NCBI RefSeq assembly: GCF_033568475.1
Contig: NC_133122.1
Span: 147,016,861 to 147,080,860, forward strand
DNA from: Henckelia pumila
Lineage: Eukaryota > Streptophyta > Magnoliopsida > Lamiales > Gesneriaceae
Direction of reading: 5' to 3'
DNA length: 64,000 nt
Made by a program: the position numbers and the translations under genes. Position 1 is the first letter of the stretch, and each line of letters opens with the position of its first letter. The notes beneath the pieces are model-generated. The model saw only the letters and a program-made list of their open reading frames with translations. It made no database searches and was not told the DNA's origin. Below, one piece after another: positions 11,398 to 49,734 of the stretch.

Positions 11398-11402
11398 ACA
11401 TG

Positions 11403-12237
11403 TGAAAGAAACGGTGTACGTGGTTGTTATGTAAAATAAGGCAGTGTTGTACTTCGTGTCGTAAAACTAAAGACAACACAGTGCAGCGGAAATTTAAAGC
11501 GTAAATAAAACTCAAGTAATAACTTTTGCACGAGTATAAAACTCGTGCGGGTGCCTTAGGGCTAAATATCACTAGTAAACGTAAGAGTAGTCTTACAAAA
11601 CAATCCTAGTGATTTTACGAAAAATCATTAAATACTAAACTTCTCAACACGTTGAGAAATCAAACTTGCATCCTAAAATACGACAAGGTATAAAAACTAT
11701 TGAATGCAACTCCCGTGGCCTAAATTGAAGAGACAGTAAAAATCTTCGAACAACACTATTCCCACAGTGTTGTCTCTGATGTCTTCAACACGAACGGCAA
11801 CACGGGGACATGCAACAACGATGGTTGCAAACCTTGCTTCAGAATTCTTCAAGATCTTCACTCGAATTCTTCAGAGTATGCGTAGAGTAGTTTTCGTCTG
11901 AAGCCTCACTTTTTCTTGTGCGTAGAAATCTCCTTTTATAGATAATCATCCAAGCTTTGAAGATTTCCTTAGATAGAGTCCTACAAGAATATGTAACAAC
12001 TTTTTAGTAGGAAATAAACTCTATCAATACATGAAAATCAAATCATGATAATATCAATTTATATTTTATCAAATAATCACATTATCACGATATGATTTAA
12101 ACTTTGGCAAATATATCTTTAACATATACGAGATATACATGGAATATTTACCAAATAATCTATCTTGTCTAGAAAGCAAAATCTTTTAATTTCCAATTAA
12201 TTGGGGCCGAAATTTACAAGGAATAAAATTCCTTTCA
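11403..12237 (-). repeat. 3' LTR of the Sirevirus
   Basis: It reads TGAAAGAAACGG...ATTCCTTTCA on the plus strand, with TG/CA ends on both strands. It is about 98.5% identical by eye to 22519-23354. It carries two copies of the nested palindrome (11443-11480, 11766-11805). Confidence 0.95.
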
Positions 12238-12346
12238 ATCTCCCCCTTTTTGCTTTCTGGACAACACAATGCACAAGTATGAGATACTTATAAACTCCCC
12301 CTGAGTTAAAAACTCTTCTCCCCCTGAATTTTAAAGTCCCCCCCTG
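12238..12346 (-). other. Cluster of four polypurine tracts
   Basis: On the minus strand AGGGGGAG-like tracts lie at about 12239-12250 (abutting the LTR), 12294-12302, 12317-12326 and 12336-12346. Several polypurine tracts upstream of the 3' LTR are a described trait of Sireviruses; only the LTR-proximal one must function. Confidence 0.8.
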
Positions 12347-12564
12347 AAGTGTTGTCCCTCATGTCGTAACACGATGGATAACATGAGCAAATACCCATGG
12401 GATTCTTTAATTCGTATATCAGAGCATAAGTGGGGTAGAAGATGTTAGTCTATTTAACACATATATGAGCAATTAAGGCACGTAACTAGAACGAATAAAA
12501 ACAGTTATATTAAAATCAGAATGAAGCAATTAAAATAAAGAAAGGATGAGAGAAGAAACAAAAT

Positions 12565-14568
12565 CTAAATTTGATCACTATCAGAGCTATCTTGATCAGA
12601 GGCTTCATTCTCATCATCCTTAGTCCCAAATGGACCAGCTTCATCTTCATCTTGTGCACTATCTCCCCCTGTTTGGCCAGAAATGCCAAGTTGTCGCCGA
12701 CAATCAGCCAAGACCGTGCTATAGAAGGCAATGTCTTCCTGAGCTTGAGCAATATTTTCCTCGGCACGAGTCATCAGCAGCTGAATGGTGGCAGTGGTGA
12801 ATTCCAGAGAGGTAGGAGTAGGCACTGTTTCTTTAGTGTTGTCTCCCGTGTTGGCAACATCGGGGGCAACACCAGCCATGTCAGCAGCAGGAGTAGGAGT
12901 GGCAGTCCAGGGTAAATCCATTATGCGATTCCCCTTTAGAAGCCCAGCTGCTAACTTCAAAGTCTCAGGCAAATCAGTGAGATCTTCTGTAATATTGCGA
13001 ATGAACGCCTGAGATTCCAAAATGCCATAAATCAGAGATGGGAATGGCAGCTTGGTAGACTTGAGACCTCCATCAGCAAACTGGAGTACCGTCTTGAATA
13101 CCATCTTTCCAAAATTAAAAGGACTCCCAGTCCCAATGGCATATAGAATGACCGCCTGAGGTCTTGTGATAACGGTGGAGTTGGAGGAGGGCGTCCAATT
13201 TCTCACAGCTATCTTGTGCAGCACAGAATAAAATGATGTGAGCTTGGCTGCAGAAAAATGGTCAGAGAACTTTTTGACCATACCTCCAGTGAGAACAGTA
13301 ATCACTTTGTTGATCTTTGGAGGATTTCCTTCATCAACATCTGGGGTTGAGTAGTGAGAGTTGATCATGGCTGGAGTGAACTCGAACAGCCGACCCCGTA
13401 GATACACCAAGCCATACTTTGCAGACTCTGGATCTTCAATGCTTGATGTTAAATTGGCGTAAAATTCCAGAATCACCCTCTTACAGTAGGGTATTACAGC
13501 AACAACTGTAGAATATAGCTGTCGAAGCTTCAAAAAATCAATGAGATTGTACCTATCATAGGAGCGAACATCAATGTTCCTCTCATCCAGTAGACCTCTG
13601 TGAGCAAGGAGAGGCCAAGTTGCAGCAGCATCACCAGAGTAAAACATGAGGGAATGAGCAGCATCCATGTCATAGTCCTCATCAACAGTATTGTTCGTGG
13701 TGTTGACGACACCAACAGCAACACTGGCAGCAGCAGCAAAAACATCCTCTTGATTCAGAGGGTCTTCATCAGCGTCCATACTGGAAACATCCTCAGATTT
13801 TTCTTCTTCTCCAATATCCGCACTCTTATCAGAAGAGTCAGCAACAGAATCGGTAGAGGAGGAAGAGGAGGAATCATGATGTGCTTTGCCTTGTGCAAAC
13901 TCCTCCATTATCTCTGCATCAGGCTCATCATCGGAGATATGAGCAGAGGGAGGAACAGAAGAGGAAGCCTTTCCTTGCTTGAGGCTTTCCAAAATTTGTG
14001 CCAGAGTGGCATCTTCATCCGAATCAGCACTTGCTTGAGGCACAGTAGCTGCAGGGGTGACATTAGAAGGAACACCATCAGAATATTTTGAATCTTCGCT
14101 ATCAGAAGCGGATTCAACTATGGGAGCGGAGGCGGAGGCGGAGGCAGAGGCAGAGGCAGCAGTCGAACCAGAGGGTTTTTTCCTTGCCACAAATTCATAG
14201 TTGGCATCATCAGAATCATCACCGGAGCTGCGGTCTTCTTCAGCCATAGATATGCGTGGACCCTTGTAAAAGCGTTTGGATTGAGTAAAATCAAGGTTGT
14301 ATCCAGCCTTCCTTTTTGATCGGCGAGCCATTGGTGCAGCAGGATTCATCTTATTCAAAACGGAGAAATCAGGAAGATTTTCCACATCAATTGCATTCCC
14401 TGGTTCTCCAGGCATGAGAACAGCGAGAGGAACAGGTTCCATGGGTACTGGAACTATCGGCATAGAAGAAGTGGAAGATGGGTTTTCTGGTGTTGTAACA
14501 CTGGCAGCAACATCAGGCTCTTTGTGGCCCATCTCACTTCGAATATCCTGTGGATCAAATCCTGCCAT
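12565..14568 (-). CDS. Sirevirus envelope-like protein (putative plant transposon protein domain)
   Basis: This intact ORF lies downstream of pol. The open frame begins at 14619, but MAGFDPQDI at 14568 (667 codons) is the more likely start. Residues about 80-310 are acidic and serine-rich, with an alternating Ala-Ser run and a basic RRSKRK patch before them. Residues about 330-560 match the domain of plant envelope-like proteins: YLRGRLFEF, an HKIAVRNWTPS stretch, an ILYAIGTGSPFNFG stretch and FPSLIYGIL. The C-terminus (about 600-640) is predicted helical, then acidic. No clear signal peptide or transmembrane span is visible, so an envelope role is only a family label. Three nested palindromes lie inside it. 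Expression probably needs splicing or a separate promoter. Confidence 0.8.
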   Translation of the reverse strand: MAGFDPQDIRSEMGHKEPDVAASVTTPENPSSTSSMPIVPVPMEPVPLAVLMPGEPGNAIDVENLPDFSVLNKMNPAAPMARRSKRKAGYNLDFTQSKRFYKGPRISMAEEDRSSGDDSDDANYEFVARKKPSGSTAASASASASASAPIVESASDSEDSKYSDGVPSNVTPAATVPQASADSDEDATLAQILESLKQGKASSSVPPSAHISDDEPDAEIMEEFAQGKAHHDSSSSSSTDSVADSSDKSADIGEEEKSEDVSSMDADEDPLNQEDVFAAAASVAVGVVNTTNNTVDEDYDMDAAHSLMFYSGDAAATWPLLAHRGLLDERNIDVRSYDRYNLIDFLKLRQLYSTVVAVIPYCKRVILEFYANLTSSIEDPESAKYGLVYLRGRLFEFTPAMINSHYSTPDVDEGNPPKINKVITVLTGGMVKKFSDHFSAAKLTSFYSVLHKIAVRNWTPSSNSTVITRPQAVILYAIGTGSPFNFGKMVFKTVLQFADGGLKSTKLPFPSLIYGILESQAFIRNITEDLTDLPETLKLAAGLLKGNRIMDLPWTATPTPAADMAGVAPDVANTGDNTKETVPTPTSLEFTTATIQLLMTRAEENIAQAQEDIAFYSTVLADCRRQLGISGQTGGDSAQDEDEAGPFGTKDDENEASDQDSSDSDQI

Positions 14569-15599
14569 TGAACAAAAATTTGAGAGTGAGAGAAGGGTAG
14601 CGTTCGCAGAGAAAAGCAATCGGGAACAAAGAATTGAGAGAAGATGATAATGCCCGATGATTAAAAAAAATATTTATAGAATCCTTATCTCAAACGGTAA
14701 CAAAATCCTAACAAACCCATAATTACCCTGATCCCTGATCTCTCTTCAGTTACAACGGTAACTTTTCTAACGGACGAAAATTAAAAACCGAGATTAAAGA
14801 GATAAAATCCCATAATTAAGGCAATAATCTGAGATAAATATTTCAATCCAAATATTTCAGAATTACCTCCACATCAGCCTAACTCCACTGAACCAAAAAT
14901 CAATCACGAAAATTCAATTTTTTAGTAAATAGGGTAAATCATCAAAATTCATCTATTTAGAACCTTACCCAAAAAACAGAACCCTATTAGAAAAAAAATA
15001 TATGCATGACCTATTTTATGCCTAAACAGAGTGTAACATAAAAATAAAAATGCAATCACAAGCAAAACAATATTTTGACGAGTGTAGTGTTGCCTCTCGT
15101 GTTGCCAACATCAACTCCAACACCATAGTTTTTCTAAAAGCATTTGAGACATACACACTTGATTACCCTTGATAAAGAAAATTTTAGATGTGGTAGCTTT
15201 CACACTAATCGAACAGTCTTCATTGGACTCAATTAGGTAGCTTTTTCCATTTTCTTCCAATTTGAATAAAGTTCGTATTTATGACATTGGTCAACAAACT
15301 TTATAAAAGATTATGACACTGAATTTGCGAAACCACCTTTCACATGGAACAAGAACATGGAATACACGTACATCCCTCCACTACTTAGTGGTTTAGTCAG
15401 AGTCTATTTTGCAAGGGCCAGTGTGTTTCAATAACAGTTTGCAGAAAAACTTGGCATTGAGTGAATCAACGAACCAGAGAATTAAACACCGCACAAACAG
15501 AATGAGTGCAGAATGTCTAGAAAACTAAAAAAAACATGACAAGAAAAACAACAGTGTTGTCGATAGTGTTGTAACACCGAAGACAACACATGCAAGAGA
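14569..15599 (-). other. Non-coding spacer between Sirevirus pol and envelope-like ORF
   Basis: There is no ORF of note here. It contains two nested palindromes at 15086-15124 and 15553-15590, the second only a few bases past the pol stop. A splice acceptor for the envelope-like ORF would be expected here but was not assigned. Confidence 0.6.
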
Positions 15600-18500
15600 T
15601 TATAATGCACACATGCTGAGAGACCTTCGAAGAGTTGAAAATCTCTCATGATCTAATGCTTTAGTAAAGATGTCTGCCAATTGGTTATTGGTTCCAACAA
15701 ACTCCATTTGAATCATTCCTTTTTCTACCAAATCTCGAATAAAGTGATGACGAATGTCAATGTGTTTTGTGCGTGAGTGTTGAACTGGATTTTTTGATAT
15801 ATCAATAGCACTCGAATTATCACAATAAACAATGGGGGGTTCACTCTTAAAACCATAGTTTTCAATCATTTGGTTCATCCAAAGAAGTTGTGAGCAACAA
15901 CTTCCGGCTGCCACATATTCAGATTCAGCAGTCGAAAGTGACACACAATTTTGCTTACGACTATACCATGAGACCAAATTATTGCCAAGGTAAAAACACC
16001 CGCCCGAAGTGCTTTTTCTATCATTCACATCACCAGCCCAATCGGCATCACTAAAACCTACAAGGTTAGTGTTGGTTTCCTTTGTATACCACAATCCCAA
16101 GTCCAATGTACTCGAAACATATTTCAAAATTCTCATGACAGCTTTTAAATGGGTTACCTTTGGATCAGATTTGTATCTAGCACATAAACACACACTAAAC
16201 ATGATATCAGGACGACTAGCAGTCAAATACAAAAGACTCCCTATCATGTTGCGATACATGGTGTTGTCAACACCAGCCGCAACACTGTCTTTTCCTAATT
16301 TTTCACTCGAGCTCATAGGAGTTTTCATGTTCTTAACATTGTCTTTGCAAAAAAATTTCACCAAGTTCTTTGCATACTTACTTTGACAAAGAAAAATTCC
16401 TTCATTTGTTTGCTTAACTTGCAATCCAAGGAAAAAAGTTAACTCTCCTACCATGCTCATCTCGAAAGTAGAAGACATGCATTCAACAAAATTATCAACA
16501 TGTTTTTGGGAAGACGCACCAAAGATAATGTCATCCACATATACTTGACAAATAAGAATTTCACCTTTGGCCTTTTGAATAAAAAGGGTTTTGTCAACTT
16601 CACCTCGTTTGAAGCCAATTTCGAGTAAATACTCGGTCAACCTACCATACCATGCTCGTGGAGCTTGCTTCAAACCATAGAGTGCTTTCTTCAACTTGTA
16701 AACATGATCCAGGTGATGTGGATCCTCAAAGCCTTTGGGTTGCTTCACATACACCTCCTCATTCAAAATACCATTCAAAAACGCACTTTTCACATCCATT
16801 TGATAAAGTTTTATACCCATATGACATGCAATAGCTAGCAATAGTCGGACTGACTCAATGCGGGCAACAGGAGCGAAGGTCTCATCAAAATCAACCCCCT
16901 CAACCTGCGTATACCCTTGAGCAACCAACCTTGCTTTGTTCCTAATGATGTTTCCTGATTCATCGGTTTTATTTTTGAAAATCTATTTTGTACCAATAAC
17001 ATTACCATGATCAGGTGGTGGAACCAACAACCAAAAATCATTTCGGACGAATTGCTCAAGTTCTTCATGCATGGCATTTACCCAAAATTCATCATTCAAA
17101 GCATCATTGACATTCTTGAGTTCAATATTGGAGACAAAACAGGAATGCATTACCTGAGAGTACACAGAACTCATGCATACTAAACCAACCATCTTGCGGT
17201 AGTCAACCTTGTCCTTACCTCGAGTTTGCCTTGTTCCATGCACATCTCCAATAATCTGTGATAAAGGATGATTCTTCTGTATCTTGCTTGGAAGATTCTT
17301 TTCAGTAATCATTTCAGCTTCCTCATTATTTTGGGAATTTTCCTCATGAATTTCTGAAGGAACCAGTGTTGTGTTTGGTGTTGTAACATCTGAGGCAACA
17401 CTGTGTTCTTCGGGAGGAATTTCTAGCAAGCCTTCAACATCATTTTCAGCAGTTTTTCCTTTGAGATCTGCACCATCATCAAAAATGACATTAATGGATC
17501 CCATCATTGTTCTGGTCCTAAGGTTATACATCCTATATGCACGACTATTAGTAGAATAACCAAGGAACAAACACTTATCACTCTTGGAATCAAATTTTGC
17601 TAGGTGATTTCTATCATTCAAAACATAACACACACAGCCAAATATATGAAAATAGTTAAGATTTGGTCTCTTTCCCATGAGTATCTCATAGGAAGTCATT
17701 GAAGAACCACTTCTCAAATAAACCCGATTGGAAATATGGCACGTTGTGTTCAATGCTTCTGCCCAAAATCTTTTGGAGATATTTTTTGAGCTCATCATCA
17801 CCCTAGCCATCTCCTGCAACGTTCTATTCTTCCTTTCGGCAATTCCATTTCTGTTGAGGAGTTTTGGGGCAGAGAACTCTTGTGAGATGCCCTTCTTATC
17901 ACACAAAGAAGAAAACAATGAGTTCTCAAATTCCTTTCTATGATCAGTTCTGATCCTTGCTACAGTCAAAGTATGTAGGTTAGTAATCTTGGTAAACAAC
18001 TTCTTAAAAACATCAAAAGTATCTGATTTTTCTCTAAGAAACCTTATCCATGTAAAACGAGAAAAATCATCAACACATACCAAAGAATACTTTTTACCTC
18101 CATAACTTTCGACTTCCATGGGACCCATCAAATCCATGTGCAAAAGTTCAAGACACCGTGTTGTCCCACAGTGTTGTAACACGAGATGCGCAACACGGGT
18201 TTGCTTACCTTTTTGGCATGCACCACAAACATATGGAGCACCAGTCTTTAGATTTGGAAGACCTCTGACAGCTTCATACTTACTCAGATTCTTTAAGGTC
18301 TTGAAATTCACATGTCCAAGTTTTTGGTGCCATAGACTAAACTCATCAATCTTTGAGTGTCTACATGCCAATTCTTCACATAGTTGGTAGCAGTTATCCA
18401 CTGATCGTGTACCTGTGATAACATAACGATTAACATTATCAAAAACTTCACACGTATTTTTATCAAACTTCACATGCAAATCATCATCACACAGTTGACT

Positions 18501-19064
18501 AATTGAAATTAAATTTGCATTAAGTCCATCAACATGTAAGACGTTGTGAAGCTTTGAAAACCCTTCCACATTGAGTGTTCCTTTGCCAACAATCCTTCCT
18601 TTTGCACCTCCTCCATAGGTCACTCTACCACCATTCTGTTCAAGGTAGTCCGTGAGGTGATCTTTCAAACCTATCATGTGCCGAGAGCTTCCACTATCAA
18701 AATACCAATTATCTGCAGTGTTAGCTTTCAAGGAAGTATAAATAACAAAACATCTAACATCAGGCTTTTGTATCCAGACTTTCTTCATAGTGGGCCTCTT
18801 TCTGCCAGTGTTGCTCTTGGTGTTGGACAACACGGAGGGTAACACTTGCTTAGATTCCCACAACACATAGTCATTTTTAAGCTTACGACAAAAAGTCCTG
18901 ATATGACCAGATTTGAGACAATAGTGACATACAAAAGGAAGCTTCCATTGTTTTGGTTTAGGAACAGAAACATATTTTTCAACAATGAGTTTCTTACCTT
19001 TCGAAGCAGTTGAAGGATGGTTCAAGGAATCATTACCTTCACAAACACTGGTGTTTTGAAGCAT
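15600..19064 (-). pseudogene. Sirevirus pol (protease, integrase, RT, RNase H), one nonsense mutation
   Basis: One frame runs from 19064 to 15600, broken only by a TAG at 16983-16985 where tryptophan is usual. Landmarks: CCHC CHYCLKSGHIRTFC about 18888-18929; protease WYFDSGSSRHM about 18700; zinc-binding integrase head with HQKLGH about 18330; core Asp in DLMGP about 18125; Asp in RTDHRKEF about 17955; Glu in [17 protein letters not shown] about 16525-16550; RNase H with DADWAG and TAESEY. The catalytic residues look intact. The usual N-terminal continuity with gag is broken by the solo LTR at 19066, and the pol ATG at 19064 lies in that insertion's TSD. Four nested palindromes fall within the coding sequence. 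Confidence 0.92.
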
Positions 19065-19065
19065 T

Positions 19066-20910
19066 TGTTGGAAAACGCGGCGATCAGATCAATCAGAATT
19101 GATACCCGGTGCAGCGGAAGTTTAAAAATTTTATATGGAACGATTCCATAGTGGGTATCAAAACCTTACGATTAAATTGTGTGTGTAAAAATTAAATAAC
19201 AATTATAAATTTTTACCTTTAATCTCGAATCGAGATTTTGGACACCAACAGATTGCTCTGCTCTTGTTGTATATCCCTGGAACTGATGGACGAACTGTTC
19301 TTCAATCAGGTCCACGAACGGATATTTAATCCCTCTGATAGATTGCACTAGAAAATCTATCAGAAGTTTCTACGAAGAGATTAACGAATTTGATCCGTTA
19401 AACCAGACTGTAATTCAAAATTCACAGACTGGATTTCCGAGCAGAGGGGAGAGGGGGTCGGCCACTTCAGAGGAAAAATACTAGGGTTTTTCGAAAATTT
19501 TGTGACCTGTTGTGTGTAATTTCTGTACTGCAATAACTTATTTATAATGTAGGCCGCTAACAGCTTAGGGCCCATTAGTCATAAGTTCAAGCCCGACAAG
19601 CAAAGCCCGCATGTTCAGAAATTAATATAAAATTCATCGTGACTCCGATTGATAAACCGATTTCACCAATGTGCACAGAAACCATTTCTGCACCTTTTAA
19701 AGTCAAGATAAATTTTTCTGAATCCGAATTCAGTGATTTCCAAAAATGTCCATCTCTATGTCATTTTAGGAAATCTTACTCCTCTACTCATAATTAAGAA
19801 GTCCAACTTCTTTGTTCATTAAATTTAACTCTTTAAATTTAACTATCTCAACGGGGATTAAAAATCCATTACTCTGTGTGACCCTCAATGGTTCAGGGAT
19901 ACAGCTAGCCGTGGGCTCACAACTCCTTGTGACTCGGAACAACAATTTCGGACTTGCCCATCGAATCATGGTATGAGCGCCTAGCAACATCGCCCCATGA
20001 TTCCCTAGGTATCACTGATAGTGCCTGCAAGAACCAATAGATTTTGGTTAGCGTACAGTACGGTCCCTTCATTCATATATCCCGATCGAATCAACAACCA
20101 TTGGTATATCGAGAGTCGTTCGAGATTCGATAACTATGCAATACATCTTGAAGATCAAATAGTGACATCGCATGTGCTACTAAGAAACCATTTCTTAAAC
20201 CACATCATGTACTCTGGCCAGAGATTCGTCACACTAATATCTCCTCAGATCGCATAGGATATCCACACTCGCAAGTATGTGGTGAATCCTTGACAACAAA
20301 GCATCGACTCCTATATGTGTTGTAACTGTACCCAATCCCGACACCTGATGACCCCAATAGAGTCGGTAAACGAGTCAAAGCACAGTACTAGCATATAGAG
20401 TCTCAATGATGTTTCAAGTAGTAAGGACTAATGGTGTACAACCAAAACCGCGGACTTTATCCACTCGATAAGTGATAACCACTTGGAAAGTCCGGATAGG
20501 GTAGTTCGATCATTCATCATATGAATATCCATTTGCATGCTTCGAACATCTCTATGTTCCTTACCAATAAAACGTGGTACTCTGCATCGCAAATGCTAGT
20601 CTCAAACTCGAGCGATCCTTATCCTTATTATCGGACGGCTCAATCGACTAGGAACAGTTTAGAATACACAGTGACTATAAGATGTGTTTCATGATAGACA
20701 TCTCCATGTTCTATCACATCTTACATACACTCTAGTATATTCAAGGTCTTTATCAAAACAACAATAGTATATCACAATATAACAATATGAAGAAAGATAA
20801 AGTCATTGCCATTAATAAAAGTGTAAATTATATTAAACAAAAGATTGTTTATACAAAGAGTCATCAAAGCCCTTAGCCACAAGTTGGCTCACCGGGCACC
20901 CACTCTTTCA
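19066..20910 (-). mobile_element. Solo LTR (1845 bp) inserted in the Sirevirus
   Basis: It starts TGTTGGAAAACGCGG and ends CCCACTCTTTCA, flanked by a perfect 5-bp duplication GCATT (19061-19065 and 20911-20915). No internal repeat or coding region is present, so it is a solo LTR. A TATAAATA box on the minus strand near 19540-19548 and the U5-like GTGCAGCGGAAGTTTAAA near 19112 suggest minus orientation. The latter nearly matches GTGCAGCGGAAATTTAAA at the same relative place in the host Sirevirus LTR. It is probably a copia-family LTR. It removed the gag-pol junction and supplies the stop codon that now ends gag. Confidence 0.87.
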
Positions 20911-22454
20911 GCATTCACCAGTTTCAAAAACACTTTCTTTAAAACCAAGTCCAAACTTATCATTCTTACCCATAGTCAAAATGGAATCAAGTTTGCTTGA
21001 ACTGGAATTAAATTTATCAAGTGTAGTTTTTGCTCTTTCAAGTTCAGAATTCAGCAACCCTAATTCCATATCTTTCTTACTCATGAGAATTTTCAGTCTA
21101 GCCACAGCAGCTTTCAATTCAGTATTCTCTTTTGTAAGAGTTGTGTTCAACTGATTCCTCTTGTTCCAATCACTGTATAACTCTTCATAGAGTTTTTGAA
21201 TACCTTCCAGAGTATAAGGATCAACTACATGTTCTTCATGATTGCTGGAATTGACAAGGTTAGAAGCAACAAAACAAACAGATTTTTGAATAGTGTTGCG
21301 TCCAGGTGTTGCAACACCGGAGTCAACACCAAGAGGATTAATCTGAAAATTTTTCTTACTCTCCAGTAAAGCAGTAAAAGATATGAGATCTTTCTGTTCA
21401 ACCTTTTCTTGTTCTTCTTTAGAATCATCTTCACTCAGAGAAACATTCATACCTTTCCGAAGGCGATTTGCGCATTCATAAGCATAGTGGCCATATCCCT
21501 TACATTCCCTGCATTGAATGTTATCAAAATTTTTGCTTGAGGACTGAACCTTACTATCATACCTTTGACGAGGTCCTCGAGTATCAGCAGGTTTTTGAGG
21601 CTTCTCTGAAGTAGGCATTCTAGGAAAATTTGAGGATTGTGCACTTTTCACATCCTTATTTTCTTTCATTACCTTGAGATAATCAGTAAATTTCTTCGAG
21701 ATCAAGGCAATAGAATTTTCCTCAAGATCAGAATCCTTTACTTCCTGTTGAACTTCAGCAAAATCATTGTAAACATTGTTAGATACTTGAAAAGCAATAG
21801 ACTTACCTTTCGAGTCATCTTCGGCTTCCAACTCCATCTCATAGGTGCGAAGATAACTAATTAACTCATCCAAACCCATTATAGATATATCTTTTGATTC
21901 ATCTATAGCACAAACCTTGGTGTGAAATCTTTTGGGAACAGAACGAAGCACTTTCGATACAAATCTCTCGTTCAAAATAGGATCAACAAGAATAGATGCT
22001 TCATTAGCAAGGCTCTTCAACCTTCCATTGTATTCCATGATGGTCTCTGATTCCTCCATTCTCATTTTCTCAAATTTTGAAGTTATGAGACGCATCATTG
22101 TCTTCTTGACACTAGCCGAGCCTTCACAGTGGGTTTGTAGTTTCTCCCAAGCATCCCTAGTACAAGTACAAGTACCAATAAGATTAAACATGTGTCATAT
22201 CAACTAAAGTGAACATAGCATTAAGAGCTTTAGCATTATAAATAGCCGCAGTATTCTCTTCGGCTGTCCATTGTGATCTTGGCTTTGGTCCTGGTACATC
22301 ATCATCTCTCATCGGTGGTGTCCAGTCATCAAGAACACGTTGCCAAGCCCTGGACTCAATGGATTGAATATACATGCTCATTTTCAATTTCCAAGGGCCG
22401 TAATTTGCCATCCAAAATAGGTGGACGAATTGCACTTGTGTACGGAGTGTCCAT
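20908..22454 (-). pseudogene. Sirevirus gag, two frameshifts and truncated
   Basis: The ATG at 22452-22454 begins MDTPYTSAIRPPILDG, a typical copia gag N-terminus. Reading shifts frame near 22415 and again near 22195. The long frame 20908-22191 holds the UBN2-type gag core, a CCHC knuckle CRECKGYGHYAYEC (about 21465-21510) and a coiled-coil region with many Lys/Glu (about 21000-21190). The last codons and the stop come from the solo LTR and its TSD. The gag and pol frames differ across the insertion, so a further indel or a natural frameshift existed. One nested palindrome is at 21292-21330. Confidence 0.88.
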
Positions 22455-22503
22455 AACTAACCTGTAACACAAACCAGGAACACACTTAGTAAAGTCAAGT
22501 GGT

Positions 22504-22516
22504 GGCTCTGATGCCA
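22504..22516 (-). other. Primer-binding site of the Sirevirus
   Basis: On the minus strand TGGCATCAGAGCC lies two bases from the inner edge of the 5' LTR. It matches the initiator tRNA-Met complement (TGGTATCAGAGCC) with one change. This fixes the element's orientation. Confidence 0.9.
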
Positions 22517-22518
22517 CG

Positions 22519-23354
22519 TGAAAGAAACGGTGTACGTGGTTGTTATGTAAAATAAGGCAGTGTTGTACTTCGTGTCGTAACACTAAAGACAACACAGTGC
22601 AGCGGAAATTTAAAGCGTAAATAAAACTCAAGTAATAACTTTTGCACGAGTATAAAACTTGTGCGGGTGCCTTAGGGCTAAATATCACTAGTAAACGTAA
22701 GAGTAGTCTTACAAAACAATCCTAGTGATTTTACGAAAAGTCATTAAATACTAAACTTCTCAACACGTTGAGAAATCAAACTTGCATCCTAAAATACGAC
22801 AAGGTATAAAAACTATTGAATGCAACTCCCGTGGCCTAAATTGAAGAGACAGTAAAAATCTTCGAACAACACTATTCTCACAGTGTTGTCTCTGATGTCT
22901 TCAACACGAACGGCAACACGGGGACATGCAACAACGATGGTTGCAAACCTTGCTTCAGAATTCTTCAAGATCTTCACTCGAATTCTTCAGAGTATGCGCA
23001 GAGTAGTTTTCGTCTGAAGCCTCACTTTTTCTTGTGCGTAGAAATCTCCTTTTATAGATAATCATCCAAGCTTTGAAGAATTCCTTAGATAGAATCCTAC
23101 AAGAATATGTAACATCTTTTTAGTAGGAAATAAACTCTATCAATACATGGAAATCAAATCATGATAATATCAATTTATATTTTATCAAATAATCACATTA
23201 TCACGATATGATTTAAACTTTGGCAAATATATCTTTAACATATACGAGATATACATGGAATATTTACCAAATAATCTATCTTGTCTAGAAAAGAAAAATC
23301 TTCTAATTTCCAATTAATTGGGGCCGAAATTTACAAGGAATAAAATTCCTTTCA
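22519..23354 (-). repeat. 5' LTR of the Sirevirus
   Basis: This 836-bp copy pairs with 11403-12237. It carries nested palindromes at 22559-22596 and 22882-22920. The first is more canonical here (CGTAACAC) than in the 3' LTR (CGTAAAAC). Confidence 0.95.
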
Positions 23355-23359
23355 ACATG

Positions 23360-44520: not shown

Positions 44521-45070
44521 TATTTATGTAGGGATTTATAAATAAGTTATAAATTGGTTTAGGGAGTGATTGGCAATTAACCCTTAAAAAAACTAAAATT
44601 GTCAATTATTAGAATATGTATAACTAAAAATGAAATTTGGATGAAAATAACTAAAATTATCAATATTAGAAGACACATGGTTAAAAGTAAAATTTGAAGG
44701 ACAGATAACAAAAATCATAAAGCGGCAAAATTACAAGATAAACAAACAATTTTCCCATTTCTTGTTTATATTATATCATTTTTATCAGTATTATATCATT
44801 ACCTTAAAATAATGATAAGAAGCTATAAAATATTGATGTATTCAATGTTCCGCAGGAAAAGTGCAATTTTAGTTTCTATATTTTAGTACTATATATAAAC
44901 GTTTTTTTGTTATTAAACATTCTAACACTAAATTTTTATTCGTTAAAACATTTAAAATCATCATAAAATTATTCTTCAAATGATATGGATATAATATATC
45001 AACAAAAAAAAATTAATTACCCAATTAATGAATAAAAACTCAATACTAATATATACTAATTAGGTTAATA
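44521..45070. other. AT-rich flank, nothing recognised
   Basis: No gene or clear element is seen. It borders the pararetrovirus on one side and a Mutator-like element on the other. Confidence 0.5.
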
Positions 45071-45080
45071 TTATTTTAAT

Positions 45081-46437
45081 GAGTTATTTGCACCAAATAC
45101 CTCTGTAAAATATTAAAAAATACAATTCTTCCATGTGAAATTTTAATAGACATCTTTAATCCTAACTTTTTATAAAATTAGCAATTATATGATTGATTGT
45201 TGCGCATGCGCTACTCATGCGACTGAACAACTATTTTGATTTTTTTTGTACCAAATACCCCTTCGAAATATTAAAAATACATATTTTATCCTTTGAGAGT
45301 ATGCTTTTTAAATCTGTTCAACCAATAATACACAAATTTAGTGAGATCCAATTATAAAATATTTATCAAACATTTATTATTTATTTTTATTTTTATTTTA
45401 AATTTATTATTTTTAATTAATTTGTTTGCTAAAAAAATATTATTATTTTATCTTGCTATCATTATTTTATTAAACGCATTTCATTTTTCCAAATTTTCTA
45501 TTAAATATACATTCATAAACAAGGATTTAAATACGTAAAAATACAAAAATATTAAACTAAAATTATTAGTTCAAACATATTATTTTTTCGATTTAAAACT
45601 ATATAATATTGAATCAAAATCTAAATTTTTGAGAAAATGCATTGCACAGTTTGCAATAACTAATAAAAAAATGGTTATAAAAAGATAATATTTACTATTA
45701 ATTCTATATTTAATTGAATAAAATAATATTTTTAATTAAATAACTTTGAAAAATATTAGTTATATATCTTAGTATTAGTTATTCGAAAAAATATATTTTA
45801 ATAGTAAATTTTATTATTATATAACCACTTTATTTTTTATTATTTAATGCAAATTGTGCAATGCATATTTTCGAAAAATAAAAATTTTGGTTCAATACTA
45901 TATAGTCCTAAATCGAAAAAGTATTATGCATGAACTTATCAGTTTGGTTCAATATTTTGGTACTTTTAGGCATTTAAATCTTTATTTATGAATGCATGTT
46001 GAATGGAGAAGTTGAAAACACGAAGTAAGTTTAATAAAATAACGATAGCAATATAAAATAATAATATATTTTTTAGAAACAAATTATTAAGAATAATAAA
46101 TTTAAAATAAAAATAAAAATTAATAAAATGAAAAATGTTTGATAAATATTTCATAATTGGATCTTTATAAAAATTGTATATTATGAATTGAATAGATTTA
46201 AAAATTATATTCTCAAGAGGTCAAATATGTATATTTAATATTCCACAGGGATATTTGGTGCAAAAAATCAAAATGTTTGCCCAGTTGCATGAGTGGCGCA
46301 TGCGCAACAATCACTCATATGAAAGGACACGTGTGCTAATTTTATAAAAGGTTAAGGTTGAAGATGTCTATTAAAATTTCACAGGGTAGAAGTGTGTATT
46401 TTCAATATTTCACAGGGGTATTTGGTGCAAATAACTC
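45081..46437. mobile_element. Mutator-like foldback MITE (1357 bp) with 10-bp TSD
   Basis: The element starts GAGTTATTTGCACCAAATACC and ends with the inverse, GGTATTTGGTGCAAATAACTC. TTATTTTAAT is duplicated exactly at 45071-45080 and 46438-46447. The arms are inverted copies for several hundred bases. Each arm holds the ACCAAATACC terminal motif twice (about 45091 and 45250 on the left; mirrored at about 46252 and 46418 on the right) and a GCGCATGCGC core. Long terminal inverted repeats and a 9-11 bp TSD indicate MULE. No transposase is seen. Confidence 0.87.
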
Positions 46438-47716
46438 TTATTTTAATATACAAATATTATATCCATAACTTTAAGGTTGTGCTTGAACAAAAGTATTTCA
46501 AATTCATGAATTTCAAATGCATTTTTGTTGTTTAGAGAAGTACACCATAAACATCAAATCCACTTCTTTTATGTTTATATGGTAATTCATGATAATTATG
46601 ATGGATTTTAAGTTTATCCAATAAAGTGGTGATTTGAAATCTATTTTAATCCATCTAACTAATGTGTAAATAATTAAGTTATGAATTTAATATTTTTCTA
46701 TGTTTCATTGTTAACACTAAAATTGTGATCGAAATCCATAGATTTAAAATACTTTCATCCAAGCGCAACCTAACATTTTTATGCTCGCTGTTATTTTTCG
46801 TATTTGATAGTGTTTTGAATATAATATATTTAATCTCTAAACTTCAAAAAATACAACATTAGACATTGTTGTTCTTTAACCATAAAATTTACTTGGAGAG
46901 CTAGTTGTGTAATAAATTTGAATGTCCAGAGATTAAAAACGTTGTGTTATAAGAATATTTATGGATCAAGACTATTTTTGTGAGAACCCAAAAATCAGTT
47001 AGGTTAATGGGGAGAAATTTGTCATTTGGACTAAAGAGAACTGGACCAGTTGTGGAAACTATATCAGTCGAGAAAACTGGATTAGTTGAGCTAAGTTCAA
47101 CAGACCATTCAGTTGAGCTACAACTGCTGTTCCAGATTTGTAACTAACACATTAACTCAAAATTATGACAATTAAGGACAATAAATGGGAGCCCAACAGT
47201 GAGATTTCTCCCTATAAATAGCACTCAAATTTCTGATATAGGTTATACGAAATTCTGGCAAAAATACATAAAATTTGAGTGAGTGAAGAGCAGTTGAGCA
47301 AGAAAGCAGTCAGTTGAGCGAGTGTCCAGTTGAGCAAGTGCAGAATAGTTTCAAGAACAACCAAATCAGCTCAGCAATCGACTGTAAGTGGGCTTGTTGT
47401 TTTAAAATCTGATATTATGTTTTAAACCTATTCCAACACGTATGTTTTGTTTTCAAAGCCCGGATTTCAAATATACTAGTTTCTGAATGCACTAAAACTT
47501 GTGAACTAGTGGTAAGAATATATATTCTGAACATTACTGAATTCTGATTACTAGTCTCACCTTGTAGAAGATTATCATATAAGAGACTGGTATCAGTTAG
47601 ACCACGAACTTCAAAAGTCAGTTTAGTACATAAAATTGATTTCTGTTATATATTATTGATAAATACCGAATTATTGTTATGTTATGTTTTGTTCTGTTCT
47701 GTGTTGATACGTATAT

Positions 47717-49400: not shown

Positions 49401-49413
49401 GTGTTGAGGTATA

Positions 49414-49725
49414 GGAAAAATTGATTTTTTGGTCCTATAGGTTTGTCACTTTGCGATTTCGGTCCTATATATTTTCAGATTTTAGTTTTAGTCCGCTATC
49501 TTTATTTTTTTGGCAATTTTAGTCATTTTTCCGATGTGGAGCTGACGTGACATCAATTCAATGCTGATGTGGAGCTGACGTGTACAGTGCCACGTCATCA
49601 TTTTCGAAGAAAAAGGACCGAAATTGCCAAAAATCAAAATATGCAAGACTAAAACTGAAATGTGAAAACATAAAGGACCAAAATCGCAAAGTGACAAATA
49701 TAATGACTAAATTTGCAATTTTTCC
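49414..49725. mobile_element. Mutator-like foldback MITE (312 bp) with 9-bp TSD
   Basis: The inverted ends GGAAAAATTG / CAATTTTTCC continue inward (TTTGTCACTTTGCGATTTCGGTCCT against AGGACCAAAATCGCAAAGTGACAAA). TGAGGTATA is repeated exactly at 49405-49413 and 49726-49734. A GCTGACGTG word repeats in the centre. The family is common in plant introns and intergenic DNA. Confidence 0.85.
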
Positions 49726-49734
49726 TGAGGTATA

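Follow-up and report, generated by a model that had tools for sequence, protein, structure and literature searches.

A four-part palindromic DNA word spread through the genes and terminal repeats of a Henckelia retrotransposon, with a candidate element-encoded binder

Why would a retrotransposon carry one large palindrome in its terminal repeats, in its linkers and in the middle of its genes? The question is raised by a copia element on the minus strand of a 64-kb stretch (the window) of the 884.7 Mb genome of Henckelia pumila (Gesneriaceae), a species for which PMC10627561 reports a genome. The element is bounded by long terminal repeats (LTRs) at 22515–23355 and 11399–12238. Its repeated motif is made of four half-sites, mostly GTGTTG-N6/7-GTGTTG-N0/1-CAACAC-N6/7-CAACAC, and measures 36–39 bp; we score it as the letters matched of the 24 in its four hexamers (GTGTTG, GTGTTG, CAACAC, CAACAC).

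An initial annotation had listed 15 copies, and all are present within 1–2 bases of where it put them, distributed as it claimed: four in the LTRs, three in internal non-coding DNA and eight in open reading frames (ORFs). Thirteen score at least 20. Reading along the element, the 5′ LTR holds copies at 22883–22919 and 22560–22595 (both 22/24), and gag contains the perfect one (21293–21329, 24/24, residues ~289–301). Three lie in the ORF at 16983–19088: at the gag/protease junction (18808–18845, 23/24, residues ~82–94), at the start of the integrase core (18158–18196, 23/24, residues ~299–311) and between the integrase and reverse transcriptase (RT) domains (17366–17401, 22/24, residues ~563–575). 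The RT copy (16261–16285, residues ~233–245) has three good half-sites, with the fourth (16246) at an odd distance. Two linker copies, directly after the RT stop codon (15554–15589) and upstream of an extra ORF (15087–15123), score 23/24 each. The extra ORF itself contains a partial motif, consisting of the inner pair and one outer half only (14490–14513), and two full copies at residues ~317–329 (13688–13724, 22/24) and ~601–613 (12836–12872, 23/24). A degenerate copy (12349–12384, 19/24) occupies the non-coding DNA between this ORF and the 3′ LTR, which ends the series at 11767–11803 (22/24) and 11444–11479 (21/24).

No further site scoring at least 19 was listed in a scan of the whole window, and the shuffle comparison that the annotation had proposed came out in the motif's favour, with five first-order Markov shuffles of the window giving no site of 20 or more (best 19). 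The inner pattern GTGTTG-N0-12-CAACAC has five exact matches against 0.03 expected. The copies are dispersed (mean gap 685 bp), and once a 1.85-kb insertion is subtracted their spacing is more even than random, with a coefficient of variation (CV) of 0.38 for the 15 sites (P = 0.0001) and 0.44 without the partial site 14489 (P = 0.0025). The annotation's limit of about 1.3 kb on any gap depends on that partial site: the largest gap is 1267 bp with it (P = 0.04) and 1399 bp without it (P = 0.07).

Genome-wide, a three-half-site pattern has 1965 + 1977 matches in H. pumila, its mirror 1486 + 1466 and the strict four-half-site palindrome 271, with zero matches to each reversed control. The three-half-site pattern also occurs in 73 viral stretches, none of which, among the matches listed, has it at two separate places; no RT relatives were found in the viral_contigs or phage collections. 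We profiled 93 distinct copies scoring at least 20, from 19 related H. pumila loci and the window. All four half-sites are near-equal in letters, with an almost fixed TGTT core and a first and last G that vary, mostly to A. On one side the outer-to-inner distance is 12 in 56 copies and 13 in 31, on the other 12 in 63 and 13 in 25; one base separates the inner halves in 61 copies, and in 25 they abut. Eight of eight additional perfect sites on one contig (C1), picked for their differing spacers, lie in DNA related to the element group, and three loci with no or few coding matches (L090, L091 and L101) also match it. No motif copy was found outside the element group among the sampled loci, a small sample whose additional perfect sites come from a single contig.

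The 19 loci (L082 and L084–L101; L083 was excluded from counts as it overlaps L082, and L085 and L086 are flanks of L084) were picked from motif matches, so that the presence of the motif in them is expected and its position is not. Sixteen hold at least one site scoring at least 20, and L092 has three exact half-sites and no site of 20. Their coding copies number 30, of which 28 map to the window's seven coding sites, at residue 295 of gag, residues 88, 304–305 and 565–569 of the integrase ORF, residue 240 of RT and residues 323 and 607 of the extra ORF, in aligned stretches of 39–71% protein identity (81–89% in L097). The other two share extra-ORF residue 111 (L089, ~7212; L094, ~4349), a place without a motif in the window copy. 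Sites in the variable N-terminal part of the extra ORF may thus turn over, with those in gag and pol staying fixed.

Letter conservation separates the half-sites from everything around them. Coding half-sites are 0.773 identical to relatives (754/976) and 0.738 at third codon positions, versus 0.516 (266/516) and 0.371 for the spacers inside the motif, 0.601 and 0.484 for flanks within 60 bases, and 0.656 and 0.500 for the rest. As a control for selection bias, 18 of the 44 site alignments, those matching the pick pattern, were dropped, including all eight of site 18808; half-sites then stand at 0.748 (third positions 0.753), spacers at 0.557 (0.429) and flanks at 0.603 (0.488), with p = 2e-11 for half-site versus flank at third positions. 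Such p values overstate certainty because sequences of shared ancestry are not independent, and the half-site versus spacer contrast within one motif suffers least from this. Conservation above flank is seen at six of the seven coding sites. Across the whole motif, codon identity at unchanged residues is 0.69 versus 0.56 outside, the residues themselves being slightly less conserved within it (0.53 versus 0.57). Non-coding half-sites reach 0.916 (327/357), with spacers at 0.677 (130/192) and flanks at 0.784, in 15 LTR and linker alignments of at most 92% identity that cover four of the five non-coding sites and still include the sites by which the loci were picked.

Ten RT relatives collected by protein similarity, independently of the motif (85–91% identity), carry the linker site after RT at a score of at least 21 in all ten and the RT site in six. 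At the RT site their half-sites are 0.972 identical versus 0.909 for the rest (p = 0.001); the half-site versus spacer difference in these ten is not significant (p = 0.15). Half-sites are kept, third positions included, and spacers are not, which makes it likely, as far as comparison of letters can tell, that selection acts on the DNA word. The annotation had thought a sequence-level role plausible and had called for a comparison of synonymous positions inside and outside the motif; the third-position contrast and the excess of half-sites over spacers and flanks support such a role.

Sampling beyond H. pumila relied on back-translation, which scores a protein by the largest part of the motif that its residues could encode (threshold 21, a score reached at 1.5–2.7% of positions in Gesneriaceae proteins). 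Rows are BLAST alignments, in which one protein can count twice; samples were chosen without regard to the motif, and one protein list comprised 120 of 4152 matches. The gag site is encodable in 10/10 Henckelia and 26/28 Primulina alignments, no other row aligning there. For integrase-ORF site 82 the counts are 9/10 in Henckelia, 27/28 in Primulina and 0/12 elsewhere; for site 299, 6/7, 31/34 and 0/62 (eight of which reach 20); and for site 563, 9/10, 21/30 and 0/34. The RT site is encodable in 0/1 Primulina (score 20) and 0/18 other rows (best 19). Extra-ORF site 317 is encodable in 2/2 Henckelia, 1/1 Primulina and 1/2 others, the one below the threshold being a Castilleja protein (score 17), and site 601 in 2/2 Henckelia.

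An integrase tree of 86 rows, made up of the window and 85 proteins retained for their coverage and span, groups the carriers in a single clade of 26 (support 100/99), with Primulina and Henckelia intermixed in it. Among the 25 clade proteins other than the window's, 24 reach 21 at one site at least and the remaining one reaches 20; outside the clade none of 60 rows does, including the nearest (P0024) and a Salvia protein (P0035). Judged by back-translated proteins, the motif is limited to one Henckelia/Primulina clade as far as sampled. The single other row that can encode site 317 is P0004, a protein from a 2610-base contig; this extra-ORF homologue (43% identity) has two encodable motif-like sites (score 22), and it may widen the host range of the motif. 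Primulina we take to be a member of core Didymocarpinae. Excerpts of PMC10627561 place Henckelia outside that group and date the group's allopolyploid origin near the Oligocene–Miocene boundary; on that basis, and provided that inheritance was vertical, the motif may date back roughly 20 million years.

At RT and at integrase site 299, non-carriers align over the same residues as carriers (EKGKSVDQSLYRS versus VAHLVLQHCGTTR among the aligned stretches), and for that reason the motif appears to have arisen there by substitution and not by insertion, as the annotation had supposed near 16260 and 18157. An origin from a shared peptide was rejected, since one of the seven coding copies uses a different reading frame and a second mixes frames.

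What, then, reads this word? At a probability of roughly 40%, we favour an oligomeric protein, predicted to be the product of the element's own extra ORF (12565–14673, minus strand; PF20167 domain, Pfam E = 3.7e-24), which would bind the composite four-half-site words, coat the element and counter silencing. The four GTGTTG half-sites would form one composite DNA word, kept in the LTRs, linker, gag, integrase, RT and extra ORF, on whose nested inverted half-sites a tetramer or two flexibly linked dimers could dock; the equality of the four half-sites, their nested inversion and the tolerance of a one-base gap suggest a site of this kind. Even cover that includes coding parts (CV 0.38) points to a protein acting on the body of the element rather than to a promoter factor. 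By analogy with VANC of VANDAL transposons, the binder would coat the whole element and counter host silencing. Neither CG nor CHG occurs within GTGTTG/CAACAC, so that methylation in these two contexts could reach a half-site only at its margin, by way of the adjoining bases. Toward an element-encoded binder we counted the absence of the motif outside the element group in the sampled loci, together with the presence of the PF20167 ORF. A basic stretch of the extra ORF also resembles a nuclear signal by eye; it reads RRSKRKAG in the window, and two relatives have RRSKRQAG and RTSKRQAG. PMC11728184 describes a predicted nuclear signal in an ORF of a sunflower Athila element that is partly similar to PF20167. 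A retrotransposon's own anti-silencing system, in which a PF20167 tetramer or dimer pair on CG/CHG-free palindromes in genes and LTRs would keep the ~10-kb body open, is the tentative extension of this analogy, one we would sooner bet against than for.

Several observations weigh against a PF20167 binder acting on double-stranded DNA. A Pfam search recognized no DNA-binding domain in the extra ORF, the predicted fold of its PF20167 piece has a low-scoring pLDDT of 37.7 (nine sequences), and a sequence search of solved structures at E ≤ 5 returned only an adhesin fragment (E = 0.008). The extra ORF may predate the motif: its Castilleja homologue (31% identity) could nowhere encode a site that reaches 21. 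Site 18158 shows no half-site excess over its flank (0.66 versus 0.72). In the inner pair of the 93 copies, 70 changes are one-sided and 10 two-sided (6.4 expected), and nine of these ten are complementary, which could reflect a hairpin or a shared G-to-A preference. RNA folds of 13 copies give z from −0.70 to −4.39, as expected of palindromes, and the power of covariation tests is limited, all compared copies scoring at least 20. In contrast to this nested, dispersed and partly coding motif, the targets of VANC are short words in tandem that lie mainly outside coding DNA. Finally, the half-site contains CAACA, the target of host RAV AP2 domains, and a host binder is thus possible.

Such a host protein, whether of RAV/AP2 type or a chromatin or nuclear-architecture protein, could be exploited for transcription, import of complementary DNA (cDNA) or chromatin placement; we consider this unlikely, though worth keeping in view. 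Besides the CAACA match, the copies in the LTRs and linker, and not only in ORFs, would suit it, and the palindromic boxes of other Sireviruses are discussed as possible nuclear-factor sites in excerpts of PMC2829016. A host factor useful to elements might however be expected to have sites in others too, and in our small sample all belong to one element group; a promoter role, moreover, leaves the sites in gag, pol and the extra ORF unexplained.

The sites could also act at the level of cDNA, with integrase or Gag recognizing them in order to pack the double-stranded cDNA, bring it into the nucleus or protect it from self-integration. Their whole-length, fairly even spread suits a coat on cDNA, and the equivalence of the four half-sites is what double-stranded DNA would be expected to give. 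We know of no integrase or Gag that uses internal palindromic sites of this kind, and we regard the idea as improbable.

Hairpins along the genomic RNA, serving as dispersed packaging or dimer signals, are more doubtful again. The nested stems are foldable, with z below −3.5 in five of the 13 copies tested, and the complementary changes of the inner pair speak for them. The outer arms do not: 73 changes are one-sided and nine two-sided (6.3 expected), of which three are complementary. In a strand-asymmetry test on 88 oriented copies (five non-orientable ones were excluded), changes that G–U pairing would tolerate and A–C changes that would break the stem number 30 and 33 in the outer arms (p = 0.80) and 20 and 41 in the inner arms (p = 0.010), the latter opposite to the hairpin expectation. 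Complementarity between the spacers of a copy does not exceed what column bias gives (permutation fraction 0.19, 11 copies), and the inner halves mostly lie 0–1 bases apart. On covariation, strand asymmetry and spacers we set the hairpin aside as the leading explanation, and the RNA-structure option that the initial annotation had offered is weakened for want of clear outer-arm covariation or strand asymmetry. From the symmetry, the weak arm covariation and the four equal half-sites, we infer that a protein would bind the motif as double-stranded DNA. A functionless 36–39 bp block spread by conversion or template switching, or a shared protein sequence, is hardly credible: right spacers resemble each other between copies somewhat more than shuffled ones do (0.41 versus 0.30) and left spacers slightly more (0.37 versus 0.33), but half-sites are 0.90 alike and spacers only 0.37–0.41, which does not fit recent block copying and led us to set it aside, and the raised third-position conservation within the motif is confined to the half-sites.

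The element around these sites is a copia retrotransposon with Sirevirus hallmarks, placed in an integrase tree that has no row labelled as a named Sirevirus. The LTRs (5′, 22515–23355; 3′, 11399–12238; both minus strand) align to each other at 98.45% identity over 841 columns, and a stretch resembling a primer-binding site was read by eye just inside the 5′ LTR (~22501–22514). Read along the minus strand, the Pfam domains follow the copia order (gag, then Pol_BBD/pre-integrase/integrase, then RT): the gag ORF (20908–22194; Retrotran_gag_2, E = 1.1e-16), the protease/integrase ORF (16983–19088; rve, gag_pre-integrs, SH3_retrovirus and Pol_BBD) and the RT/RNase H ORF (15600–16982; RVT_2, E = 5.1e-66). 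The extra ORF, between RT and the 3′ LTR, has the env-like position often, not always, occupied in Sireviruses, and two polypurine-tract-like copies on the minus strand, at 12239 and 12662, may correspond to the multiple tracts described for Sireviruses upstream of the 3′ LTR. An in-frame stop (16983–16985) splits the integrase and RT ORFs, so the window copy is broken; many RT relatives in the H. pumila genome likewise contain stops. The 1.85-kb insertion (~19066–20910) separates the gag and protease/integrase parts. Similar sequence occurs in L094, L095 and L101, and the insertion is therefore a member of a repeat family, plausibly the solo LTR named in the initial annotation. Elsewhere in the window, the stretch 45068–46449 aligns to its reverse complement at 81%; it is an inverted repeat, each arm ~0.69 kb long, and perhaps a fold-back element. 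A smaller inverted repeat lies at 49413–49726 (73%).

Among the matches listed, which covered few subscription papers, our literature search turned up neither this motif nor comparable sites inside the coding regions of retrotransposons. Transposon-specific repeated DNA words are known; what is new is that this one is nested, large and written into conserved genes. It would amount to a second, DNA-level code within conserved retrotransposon enzyme genes, one that has outlasted much protein divergence. The idea that a retrotransposon runs an anti-silencing or DNA-coating system becomes open to test, and in binding assays the motif can serve as bait exactly as it stands. Extra ORFs with PF20167, which have lacked an explanation and of which one is reported from a sunflower Athila element, become candidates for DNA-binding proteins. 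If the proposal is true, PF20167 proteins gain a function, and the system would be, to our knowledge, the first self-encoded, sequence-specific anti-silencing system in a retrotransposon.

Three known systems invite comparison. The RM boxes of Sireviruses are described in excerpts of PMC2829016 as multi-copy dyad palindromes of 10–20 bp whose core, Tnd-1 excepted, is CGG-CCG. They cluster in the LTRs and in the linker near the env-like ORF, and in two elements a few also lie where that ORF begins. Like them, the window motif is a multi-copy, dyad-symmetric palindrome in LTR and linker; unlike them, it has a GTGTTG/CAACAC core and four half-sites over 36–39 bp, and extends into gag, integrase, RT and the extra ORF. 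The window element has no CGG-CCG palindrome with arms of at least four bases, and we rejected RM boxes as the motif's identity. The strings GTGTTG and CAACAC are absent from the main text of PMC2829016. Whether the motif was one of the published Sirevirus motifs, which the annotation had left open, can be answered in the negative for the boxes described there.

In the VANC system, element-specific words recruit an element-encoded protein and methylation is lost throughout the transposon (excerpts of PMC5735166); the VANC21 word, YAGTATTAY, is 9 bp long and lies in tandem repeats, mainly in non-coding DNA (excerpts of PMC5735166 and PMC10398659). The Henckelia motif resembles VANC targets as a transposon-specific, CG-free DNA word repeated along a plant element with an extra protein, and within the sampled loci and proteins it is specific to its element. 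VANDAL elements are Mutator-like DNA transposons with a known binder, whereas here the element is a retrotransposon, the coding sites are fixed and the binder is a candidate only. TnpA of En/Spm, which binds many inverted subterminal half-sites and affects methylation, supplies the third parallel: both systems present many inverted half-sites to an element protein, proposed in our case, but those of En/Spm are confined to the subterminal regions of a DNA transposon and those of the window motif are spread along a retrotransposon.

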